From: Lachnospiraceae bacterium | GTDB taxonomy: Bacteria > Bacillota > Clostridia > Lachnospirales > Lachnospiraceae | DNA: 64,000 bases | Direction of reading: 5' to 3' | Assembly (NCBI GenBank): GCA_015056945.1 | Contig: SVFH01000017.1 | Coordinates: forward strand, 1-64,000 | Part shown: in pieces, positions 55,157-59,026 of the stretch | Numbering within the stretch: the stretch's first letter is position 1 | How the letters are laid out: the number at the start of each line of letters is the position of its first letter | Made by a program: the position numbers and the translations under genes | Notes under the pieces: model-generated | Databases searched by the model: none | What the model saw: only the letters and a program-made list of their open reading frames with translations | Told to the model about the DNA's origin: nothing

Positions 55157-55184
55157 TCCCGGGAAGAATAAATCCTTCCCGGGA
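55157..55184 (-). terminator. Terminator of the chemoreceptor-like gene
   Basis: Arms TCCCGGGAAG and CTTCCCGGGA with an eight-base loop, then TTTGTTGTTTC on the minus strand, 29 bases past the stop codon at 55213. It separates that gene from the operon promoter at 55088. Confidence 0.85.
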
Positions 55185-55212: not shown

Positions 55213-57261
55213 TTATGCTTCAATCAAGCTTTCCACATTATTCTTATCGACTACAGACAAGCGACACGGAATGAATTCTCCGGGGAACGGCTCATCTGCT
55301 GCAATGTTATTATAAAGCCATACAATCGGGTCATGTCCCTGACCAAACGCATCCTGGCCGATTGCTGCTGCAATAATGCCTTTCTTGATATAACGGAAAA
55401 TATCCTGATTGTGGTCAAACGCAAAGAGCTTAACCTTACCGGCTCTTCCGCTGTCATCAATTGCTCTTGCTGCTGCACAAGGGAAGCCGTTAGTAATGTA
55501 AAGTGCCTGAATATTATCATTAGCACGAAGCATATTCATTGTCTTACGATATACATCATCTTCATCATCCGCAATAATCACTTCATCAACAATGCTAATT
55601 CCCTTAACATTTGCTATCTCTTTCTTAAAGCTGTCTCTACGTTCTACGTTAACCCCTACATCAAGATTACCAATCAAAAGACCGACATTGCCTTTCTTAC
55701 CGAGCTGTTTAGCCATCGCCTGCGCTGCAATGATACCGGGTTCATCAGGATCAGGGCGTAAGCACGCAACTCTCTTAATGTTCGGACCGCAATCACAGTT
55801 AAACATCATGACTTTCATACCGCTACCTGCCACTTTGGAAAGAGGCTCAGCTGCATTCAGGAAGCCCGGCATAATAATACCGTCAAATCCGCGTTCTGCC
55901 GCACTAAGAATAGTATTTGATACCAATTGATCCAAATCCTCTCCGGGACCGGGAATCAAGGGAACATACTCTGCAATTCCGCCAACAGATGCAAGCTCTT
56001 TTACCGCATAGTTTGCGCCACGTCCTACACCATACCAGAAATCATTGTCATACATACTCATCAACATAATCTTAGTCGGTTTACTGCGTTTAGAACGAGC
56101 CGGAACAATTGCGGTATTGAACTGTCCAAGCAATCCCTGAATACCCATCAACATACCGCCCAGTTTCTCGGTATGCATTGCAATCTTATTAGACTCAGCT
56201 GCAACTTCTTCCGATACTGCTGCAATTTCATGTGTACTTTCGCTAATCGCCTGTGAAGTATCAAACAACTTGGTTGCTTTCCGCTTTGTTTCGACTGAAT
56301 TGTCTGCCATCACTTCAAACTTACCGGATACATCCTGCATCATATTATGAATCTCAACAGACTGTTCGTTGATGGAACGGAAGGAACTGTTTACACGCTC
56401 AAATGTATCTTTACTCTTGTTATATGTATCTTCACAAGTACGGATACTGTCATTAACCTGCTTACTGCTGTTAATAATCTCATGTACAATCTTATTGATG
56501 GTATCCATACCATCCTTGGTCTTTGCAGACATATCATTCATTTCATCTGCAACAACCGCGAAACCGCGACCGGCCTGTCCTGCTCTGGCTGCTTCAATGG
56601 ATGCATTAAAAGCAAGGAGTTTTAACTGTTCAGAAATACCGATAATGAAATCACCGACTTCTTCAATTCGTTTAATCTCAGCATTAAAAGCTGTCAGGAT
56701 TTCATCAATATTATTCAATTCCACAGACATTGCATTCATGTCAGTCTCATACCCTTCAAGCTTCGCGATACCTTCTTTGCAGCTTGCAACACTTTCATCA
56801 AGAAGTGTACGAATAGACTGCATGGAATGTTCTACCTTTTCCATCTGCTCATTGTTTGCTTCAATCAGTTCAAGGTTATCTTTTACAATTTCAAACTGCT
56901 CTGCCGTTTTACCTGCTACATTGGTAACGCCGTCGGCAATCTGCTCGTTCCCCTTCTGATTTGCTTCCACACTCTTTGAAAGAACGTCAATTGCATCAGA
57001 GAGGATAATTACATTACCTTTGGTCGCTTCCACGAACGTAAGTAAGTTACTCTTGATTGCATTGATGGAACTGGCAATAATTGTGGATGTACCTTTTCCC
57101 TCATCCACCTTAATGTCATCAACATTAAGCTTTCCTTTCACAATCTGCTGTCCTTTTTTCACAATCGCGTTATAATCGCGGTTATTCTTTAATAATTTAA
57201 AAATCAGAAAAGCAATAACCAGCAGTTCAATAATTACTAGAATCAATAAAACAATTTCCAT
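55213..57261 (-). CDS. Chemoreceptor-type signalling hairpin fused to a sugar-binding domain
   Basis: A 682-residue protein. A single transmembrane helix (2-22) is followed by KLLKNNRD, which places the rest in the cytosol. Residues about 50-380 form a long coiled coil with an MCP hairpin tip near 205-240 (ISEQLKLLAFNASIEAARAG, then GRGFAVVADEM). Residues about 396-682 are a periplasmic-binding-protein fold of the ribose-binding type: KIMLMSMYDNDFWYGVGRG, DGIIMPGFLNAAEPL, VGLLIGNLDVG and YITNGFPCAAARAI. So the ligand domain sits inside the cell, after the signalling domain, the reverse of a classical receptor. It has its own terminator and a promoter-like -10. No chemotaxis genes are near. 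GGGAGG precedes the ATG. Confidence 0.85.
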   Translation of the reverse strand: MEIVLLILVIIELLVIAFLIFKLLKNNRDYNAIVKKGQQIVKGKLNVDDIKVDEGKGTSTIIASSINAIKSNLLTFVEATKGNVIILSDAIDVLSKSVEANQKGNEQIADGVTNVAGKTAEQFEIVKDNLELIEANNEQMEKVEHSMQSIRTLLDESVASCKEGIAKLEGYETDMNAMSVELNNIDEILTAFNAEIKRIEEVGDFIIGISEQLKLLAFNASIEAARAGQAGRGFAVVADEMNDMSAKTKDGMDTINKIVHEIINSSKQVNDSIRTCEDTYNKSKDTFERVNSSFRSINEQSVEIHNMMQDVSGKFEVMADNSVETKRKATKLFDTSQAISESTHEIAAVSEEVAAESNKIAMHTEKLGGMLMGIQGLLGQFNTAIVPARSKRSKPTKIMLMSMYDNDFWYGVGRGANYAVKELASVGGIAEYVPLIPGPGEDLDQLVSNTILSAAERGFDGIIMPGFLNAAEPLSKVAGSGMKVMMFNCDCGPNIKRVACLRPDPDEPGIIAAQAMAKQLGKKGNVGLLIGNLDVGVNVERRDSFKKEIANVKGISIVDEVIIADDEDDVYRKTMNMLRANDNIQALYITNGFPCAAARAIDDSGRAGKVKLFAFDHNQDIFRYIKKGIIAAAIGQDAFGQGHDPIVWLYNNIAADEPFPGEFIPCRLSVVDKNNVESLIEA

Positions 57262-57303: not shown

Positions 57304-57330
57304 CGTGTTATTTAGATGAATTATAACACG
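57304..57330 (-). promoter_or_regulatory. Palindrome over a -10 box upstream of the chemoreceptor-like gene
   Basis: CGTGTTAT (57304-57311) and ATAACACG (57323-57330) form an inverted repeat with an 11-base centre. On the minus strand it contains TATAAT (57325-57320), about 60 bases before the ATG. No good -35 is visible. It may be an operator, or a small hairpin in the leader. The rest of 57262-57442 is AT-rich and empty. Confidence 0.45.
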
Positions 57331-57442: not shown

Positions 57443-59026
57443 TCATTCTCGATTTTTACGGAAAATAATATAATCTTCGGACTCATAAATCATTGCATAA
57501 TTCAATTCTAAACGTTCTCCGAACTGTGCTTCAATGTCAGCATAACTTTTCTCCAGCCATTCCGGATTCAACCCATCCGGTGCCGTTTTTGAGCAAAGCA
57601 CATATGCTGCATCTTCCGGAAAAATACCATCCTGCATAATGAAATTCACACCAAAGCCGCCCGGAATGGCAAGAATCGCTTTGGGTTCCATCGTATATAA
57701 ATAAACAGTATTGTCCCACGGATCATCGGATTCCTCAAGCACAAGTACCTTGGCGAAATCTTCTTCCAATGCTTCCCATTCATTCTTTTGCGCCTCTGTC
57801 ATATAACGCTCCTGCATAAAATAATCCATATTGGCCGGCAGGAATATCAGGCTGACCGCCTGCAATACAAGAACAATAACAAATAAAATTTTATCTTTCA
57901 TCAAAGCAAGGAGCCATAAGGAGAACACTACCGCAATCTGCGTTCCGCGGACAAAAGTAAACGGTTCAATGGAATACAGCGTCATATACATCAGATAAAA
58001 GAGGGGAATGCTGTAAACAACAATTGCTCCAAGAATCCCGTCGTGGGCATTTTCCTCTTTTTTCTTCCCGATGAACATACGAACCAACGGGATGCAGGCA
58101 ATGACTACAAGCAATATACTAAACAAAACATGCCACGGAATCAACGGATTGGAATATACATATGTCCAAAGCTGAAACACCTGCCCCATGCCGGCTTTCA
58201 TCATACGCAGAAAAGCAACTACAGCGCCGGGAATATCCATTGCCTTGACCGCCGCAAGCAAGGCTTCTGTTTTATAAATATTGTAATTACTTGAAATCAG
58301 ATGCAACAAATAATAACTTCCTAATGCAACAATTCCCATGGCAGGAACCGAAACAACAAGCCTTACCCATAATTTGGATTTGCGTAAAAGTGCAAACACA
58401 TAAATCGGAACGCAAAAAGCAAAAAAAACATAAATTTGGACCGACGCAATAATCACTAGCGGTGTAACCACATATTTCACTATCGGTTTTGCTTCGTGAA
58501 AAAACATATGATACAAAAGACCTGCAATCACAATTGCAAATGCATACCGAAAAATTTCAGACATATTTACGGAAAGATATAAAATAAACACCGCGGAAGT
58601 TGCCTGAGTCAGCGCTATCTTCAAACTGTTTGCTTTCGAAGGTCTGACACAAATCCAAAAAATTAAATTTGCCAATGTAATATAAAACAAATTCACATAG
58701 TATACAAATCCGCCGGTTATCGGAAATACAAACGCAAAGACGGCATACGGCCAGATAATGGCGGGACTCCACGCCCCACCGGTACCTACCAGCGCATGAT
58801 TTCCGTTAAATCCCCAGTATCCGACGGGCTGTCCTGTCGTGATACAGTTCTTAATCATTTGAAGGTATGCGGCTTCATCATTCCACTTCAGCCCCGGTTC
58901 CGGAAACAAACCGGTTTTCACAAAACCGACAAGCGCCACCACCAAAGCAATCAAAAGCGGAATACCAATCATCAGACCGGCACAAATATATTCTGTTATT
59001 TTTTGATTTTTTTCTCTTTTATCCAT
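57443..59026 (-). CDS. GT-C-like multi-span membrane protein
   Basis: A 527-residue protein with about twelve hydrophobic segments and a soluble C-terminal part of about 110 residues. The first outer loop has GLKWNDEAAYLQMIKNCI, an acidic motif placed as in GT-C transferases, and GYWGFNGNHALVGTGGAW follows. It is a single-gene unit with its own promoter (59110-59138). It probably modifies a glycan or teichoic-acid-like polymer outside the cell; no closer assignment is possible. Confidence 0.58.
   Translation of the reverse strand: MDKREKNQKITEYICAGLMIGIPLLIALVVALVGFVKTGLFPEPGLKWNDEAAYLQMIKNCITTGQPVGYWGFNGNHALVGTGGAWSPAIIWPYAVFAFVFPITGGFVYYVNLFYITLANLIFWICVRPSKANSLKIALTQATSAVFILYLSVNMSEIFRYAFAIVIAGLLYHMFFHEAKPIVKYVVTPLVIIASVQIYVFFAFCVPIYVFALLRKSKLWVRLVVSVPAMGIVALGSYYLLHLISSNYNIYKTEALLAAVKAMDIPGAVVAFLRMMKAGMGQVFQLWTYVYSNPLIPWHVLFSILLVVIACIPLVRMFIGKKKEENAHDGILGAIVVYSIPLFYLMYMTLYSIEPFTFVRGTQIAVVFSLWLLALMKDKILFVIVLVLQAVSLIFLPANMDYFMQERYMTEAQKNEWEALEEDFAKVLVLEESDDPWDNTVYLYTMEPKAILAIPGGFGVNFIMQDGIFPEDAAYVLCSKTAPDGLNPEWLEKSYADIEAQFGERLELNYAMIYESEDYIIFRKNRE

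Follow-up and report, generated by a model that had tools for sequence, protein, structure and literature searches.

How a chemoreceptor might read a sugar from inside the cell is the question raised by one gene of the window, the 64,000-nucleotide stretch of Lachnospiraceae contig SVFH01000017.1 analyzed here. The gene encodes a 682-residue protein, called the fusion below, with one N-terminal membrane helix, then the hairpin of a methyl-accepting chemotaxis protein (MCP), and then a complete type-I periplasmic binding protein (PBP) domain. Our combined proposal, to which we give an even chance, is that the fusion acts as a flagellar chemoreceptor for a cytosolic sugar, perhaps a pentose derived from hemicellulose. 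A wider proposal, which we rate at somewhat less than even, is that gut and rumen Lachnospiraceae share a family of receptors whose PBP-fold sugar sensor is cytosolic, that several of these receptors are encoded with hemicellulose hydrolases, and that these cells would navigate by an intracellular product of fiber digestion rather than by the sugar outside.

Domain Architecture of the Fusion

The gene and its parts map as follows.

55213..57261, minus strand: MCP-PBP fusion gene, 682 amino acids plus stop codon (open reading frame, Pfam, relatives)
57184..57258, minus strand: single N-terminal membrane helix, about residues 2–26 (hydropathy scan; helix 2–41 in the structure model)
57028..57183, minus strand: neck, about residues 27–78 (aligns with the region that is TM2-HAMP in ordinary MCPs)
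56128..57027, minus strand: MCP signaling hairpin, about residues 79–378 (MCPsignal; model helices 58–226 and 231–378)
56524..56649, minus strand: hairpin tip, residues 205–246 (17-row alignment)
56191..56229, minus strand: possible methylation-type stretch EIAAVSEEVAAES, residues 345–357 (by eye in the alignment)
56077..56127, minus strand: linker, residues 379–395, with the basic run ARSKRSKP (sequence; low pLDDT over 373–382 in the model)
55216..56076, minus strand: type-I PBP domain, residues 396–682, predicted to be cytosolic (Pfam, model, structural matches)

Pfam matches the protein to MCPsignal (E = 7.8e-25; 88.1 bits against a cut-off of 34.6) and to Peripla_BP_4 (E = 6.4e-35), and both domains are present in all 17 aligned relatives. 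The order of the two, MCPsignal then Peripla_BP_4, had been expected in a first-pass annotation of this DNA and is borne out by Pfam, by the 17 relatives, and by the structure model. As judged from sequence, the MCPsignal domain with its hairpin tip makes the fusion a member of the MCPs. Because N219, E223, and R226 of the tip, whose role we assign from Escherichia coli Tsr, are invariant in the 17-row alignment, the receptor is likely to enter a CheA/CheW array. The C-terminal domain fits the Peripla_BP_4 profile and has the two-lobed fold, according to Pfam, the predicted structure, and structural matches. Alignments of the fusion to ordinary MCPs begin at query residues 2–11, and none of the 17 relatives gives a Pfam match to HAMP at E 0.01. 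The methylation-type stretch is not conserved in all alignment rows, with L069 deviating.

Probable Cytosolic Placement of the Binding Domain

The sole hydrophobic segment of the fusion starts at residue 2, with no basic residues ahead of it and a net charge of +3 in the 15 residues that follow; by this crude window, 20 of 23 fusion frames have a net positive charge there. Beyond the N-terminal region, a hydropathy scan found no hydrophobic segment in any of the 23 frames. The PBP domain follows the hairpin with no intervening span, and thus is predicted to depart from solute-binding proteins in their export signal and extracytoplasmic position. Since the hairpin must contact CheA and CheW in the cytosol and no membrane crossing comes after it, residues 396–682 are very probably cytosolic.

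The single span and cytosolic binding domain put forward in the first-pass annotation are supported by the 23 frames. Its premise that sugar-binding proteins work outside the cell is stricter than the relatives allow: L095, L099, and L122, all close to the PBP domain, are LacI-type regulators with Peripla_BP_4, and LacI-type regulators act in the cytosol. The fusion resembles them in its predicted use of this domain as a cytosolic sensor, whereas their control is of transcription through a helix-turn-helix domain and that of the fusion would run through CheA.

Chemotaxis and Flagellar Genes

The source genome (48 contigs, 88% complete) contains four further MCPsignal proteins, three CheW-domain matches, and three flagellin matches. 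On contig 39, a single run of genes encodes FlhB, FlhA, an SRP54-type GTPase (FlhF-like), CheB, CheA, CheW, CheC, and CheD and continues with a sigma-70-family factor (FliA-like) and FapA, followed by rpsB and tsf; the CheA has Hpt, P2, dimer, ATPase, and CheW domains. The earlier remark that no che genes are near is correct within the window, the che run being on contig 39, and the accompanying suggestion that the protein possibly works without chemotaxis finds no support, given this run with its flagellar genes and the flagellins in the genome. In L036, L042, and L044, the fusion gene lies directly behind rpsB-tsf, at 200–216 nt, in L044 also with FapA; because this order matches that beside the che run here, the fusion in that clade sits on the border of the che region.

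With p values that throughout ignore relatedness among genomes, CheW proteins occur in 11 of 11 fusion carriers (9 whole, 2 split) and 60 of 88 non-carriers among 99 genomes (p = 0.03), and flagellin occurs in 10 of 11 and 54 of 88, respectively (p = 0.09); within the genus, the corresponding counts are 9 of 10 carriers versus 7 of 21 non-carriers for flagellin (p = 0.006) and 10 of 10 versus 14 of 21 for CheW (p = 0.07).

These counts bear on a different output. The first-pass annotation had the protein possibly sensing an internal sugar or nucleotide sugar and signaling glycan supply, an idea that depends on the polysaccharide-synthesis genes amid which the fusion gene stands alone in this window. 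Signaling via CheA to a non-flagellar output such as surface glycan would fit that setting, and 14 MCPs are reported from a non-motile Butyrivibrio (PMC2914790). Two genomes of the same genus, G004 and G015, both listed as 100% complete and both without the fusion, have three CheW-domain matches each and an empty flagellin scan. We nevertheless consider a non-flagellar output quite unlikely: the genome has flagellin and che genes, flagellin accompanies the fusion in nearly all carriers, and the polysaccharide-synthesis setting is absent from the other neighborhoods examined, where hydrolases appear in 4 of 13 lineages. The fusion gene also stands apart from the glycan genes and has a terminator of its own, as had been annotated.

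55157..55184, minus strand: terminator-like hairpin with a T tail, own terminator of the fusion gene

The Ligand Pocket

Pocket positions were assigned via alignment to XylFII, with the numbering offset derived from the places of D103 and H22, and we take their pocket-lining role partly from ribose-binding protein. F408, W409, N488, D490, R541, and D616 are identical in all 23 fusions, the pocket-type N406 is kept in 21, and Q636 is kept in 20 (H in L110, L111, and L112). At the places aligned with H22, a xylose-site residue of XylFII (PMC9601137), and with D103, to which we give such a role from the title of the D103A mutant entry 5xsd, the fusion has M403 and N488, respectively. The pocket looks conserved, yet different from that of XylFII.

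A structural or protein-docking module that no longer binds a small ligand could account for two features specific to the fusions, namely N, S, or T at position 591, where 9 of 10 standalone rows have A, and H at position 643, found in 23 of 23 fusions versus 0 of 10 standalone rows. Such a loss of binding is very unlikely in our estimation, given that the usual pocket-lining residues are conserved. A sugar-like ligand is probable, and a pentose or other hemicellulose product is our best single guess. The top sequence match, CbpD, bound none of the tested sugars, which cautions against naming a ligand (PMC9601137). The internal sugar-like cue of the first-pass annotation remains a reasonable guess.

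C489, C491, C500, and C666, invariant in the 17-row alignment, were considered as a metal or redox site or as a mark of cytosolic location. This idea was dropped because five distant fusions (L108, L109, L112, L113, and L117) each lack one or more of them and because cysteine counts show no difference from those of a standalone set that includes three LacI-type regulators and six proteins judged by eye to carry export signals (means of 5.0 and 4.8, p = 0.81).

Hydrolase Genes beside the Fusion in Relatives

In eight congeneric genomes (nine loci), a GH43 homologue lies co-directionally upstream of the fusion with a gap of 23–85 nt (eight loci measured, stop codon included; L045 and L066 are one contig, and in G011 the contig ends before the upstream gene). 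Within the fetched stretches, the cluster also contains GH39 (seven loci), GH3 (six), an AraC-type regulator (six), and the ATPase and permease of a sugar ABC transporter (five), as annotated mostly by Pfam and NCBIfam for L063 and by homology to L063 for the other loci. The transporter, of monosaccharide type, passes the cut-offs for ChvE and GguA and narrowly misses that for GguB, and a second, XylF-like binding protein is below its cut-off. Five near-identical loci (L037–L041) have upstream a gene for a GH10 enzyme that also contains a feruloyl-esterase-like domain (by Pfam for L037); it is 37–41 nt from the fusion in four loci and has a predicted overlap with it in L040. Upstream in G034, at 94 nt, is a gene for a presumably GH51-type protein with an alpha-L-arabinofuranosidase C-terminal domain; in G321, a GH1 gene lies 131 nt upstream.

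A receptor of the same design for a non-sugar ligand (AI-2, a polyol, or a nucleoside) is unlikely, although it deserves more weight than the alternatives above. Set against it are the hydrolase and monosaccharide-transport neighbors, the location of the permease gene on the opposite strand, and the standalone relatives, which are just distantly similar.

Counted by lineage, a hydrolase is upstream of the fusion in 4 of 13 (the contig-cut G608 locus lies outside the 13), corresponding to p = 0.0005 if 3% of genes are hydrolases and p = 0.016 if 8% are, both rates being assumed and not measured. Weighing against a sensor for fiber-derived sugar are the nine lineages with no hydrolase upstream, which include this window and G691 (divergent gene), and the association of fusion and hydrolase is on this count suggestive and not uniform across lineages. 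The source genome keeps a GH43 orthologue on another contig (78% identity); a scan of it run without a positive control found no GH39 relative.

A Model for Sensing from Inside the Cell

MCP hairpins control CheA, and type-I PBPs close on their ligand. In our model, the N-terminal helix would anchor the receptor in the membrane, and the hairpin would join the CheA/CheW array. The second hairpin arm would run back toward the membrane, carrying the tethered PBP domain below it, such that the PBP domains, on a linker of ~17 residues, would sit beneath the membrane, close to the neck of the dimeric receptor. The PBP clamshell would close on a sugar present in the cytosol, for which a pentose or another small hemicellulose product is the most likely candidate. 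Closure would change how the arm ends or the neck pack and so shift CheA activity. The cell would then be guided by sugar that it has already taken up or set free internally. Both the pentose and the route from PBP closure to the hairpin are guesses.

If correct, a receptor beside hydrolases and sugar uptake would couple movement to successful digestion in fiber-degrading gut bacteria, giving metabolism-dependent taxis a directly testable example in which the sensor domain is defined. A CheA hairpin would, in addition, be seen to be controlled by a PBP clamshell that acts from within the cell and from the receptor's C-terminal end.

Relation to Known Sensory Systems

In E. coli, the ribose and galactose binding proteins feed the PBP fold into the chemoreceptor Trg as separate, periplasmic proteins that dock on its outside domain, whereas in the fusion the PBP domain is built into the receptor and predicted to be cytosolic. 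XylFII lies outside the cell. The fusion resembles the XylFII-LytS system (5xsj, 5xss, and 5xsd) in having a same-fold sugar PBP as sensor partner (24–26% identity); XylFII differs in that it is a protein of its own and that its coupling is to a histidine kinase. For AI-2, MCPsignal and Peripla_BP_4 are described in separate receptors (PMC12268683).

Chemoreceptors with C-terminal ligand-binding domains form a poorly characterized class, for which at least 17 domain types are recorded, CZB being the commonest (PMC7390727). By sequence, the fusion belongs to this class, its sensor domain being C-terminal to the signaling domain. As in those receptors, the sensor comes after the signaling hairpin and, by our prediction, in the cytosol (PMC7390727); it differs from theirs in being a full PBP clamshell. 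The class itself is already known. In the titles and abstract openings of the open-access papers that our searches returned, we found no description of an MCP with a C-terminal PBP clamshell, of its hydrolase neighbors, or of the role proposed here.

Distribution and Phylogeny

Among 99 relatives, the full-length fusion is present in seven other genomes of the same genus and in G034, of another genus, with split copies in assemblies G016 and G029. Across the family, at least 9 of 397 genomes, this one included, have a full-length fusion; that of G321 has a TAG within the matched stretch. A survey of the order found it in at least 2 of 295 genomes, again including this one, together with a contig-cut copy in G608, of another family, and a survey of 398 genomes of the phylum had only this genome among the matches listed. 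Because few candidates were scored per genome, and the fusion of G073 is not among the order matches listed, divergent fusions are undercounted. A scan of named genomes gave at least 10 fusion loci, all from Lachnospiraceae (nine metagenome assemblies and the isolate AC2028, record JNJD01000007, whose locus L041 is one of those with the GH10 gene). Some of the metagenome carriers come from rumen, omasum, and horse feces. A close-relative scan of viral contigs, bearing on a viral origin, found no relative.

In the tree, the PBP halves from 24 fusion rows group as a single clade (87/99, not starred). Adjoining it are six standalone binding proteins that, by eye, have export signals (84/92). The G073 protein (L072:9314-11410, minus strand), from a different family of the order, has MCPsignal followed by a C-terminal Peripla_BP_4, about 24% identity to the fusion, and two abutting hydrophobic windows at its N terminus. 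On a long branch, it is neither joined to nor separated from the fusion clade, and a second origin of the MCP-PBP architecture in G073 is unsupported by the tree test (p-AU = 0.216).

Other Features near the Fusion Gene

57304..57330, minus strand: inverted repeat spanning an extended -10 (TATAAT, 57320–57325), by sequence scan

The palindrome that had been annotated over the -10 is present, as CGTGTTAT-N11-ATAACACG, but is within chance expectation for an AT-rich stretch; it is a possible operator. A scan for a motility promoter found CCGATAA 159 bases ahead of the fusion start, without a -35. A full match stands ahead of none of 22 genes, namely those of 20 relatives, of the window, and of G073 (the stretch scanned for L064 being just 197 bases), and two of four flagellin control loci also have none, leaving the scan undecided.

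The upstream neighbor in the window (57443-59026, minus strand) encodes 527 amino acids with no Pfam match at E 0.1 and is membrane-like by eye. In G402, the second gene upstream of the fusion (L110:1386-2744, plus strand) codes for a serpin-family protein. In G254, the gene 137 nt upstream (L111:6750-9329, plus strand) encodes a hybrid histidine kinase with an N-terminal Peripla_BP_3 and no hydrophobic segment, possibly a second cytosolic PBP sensor.
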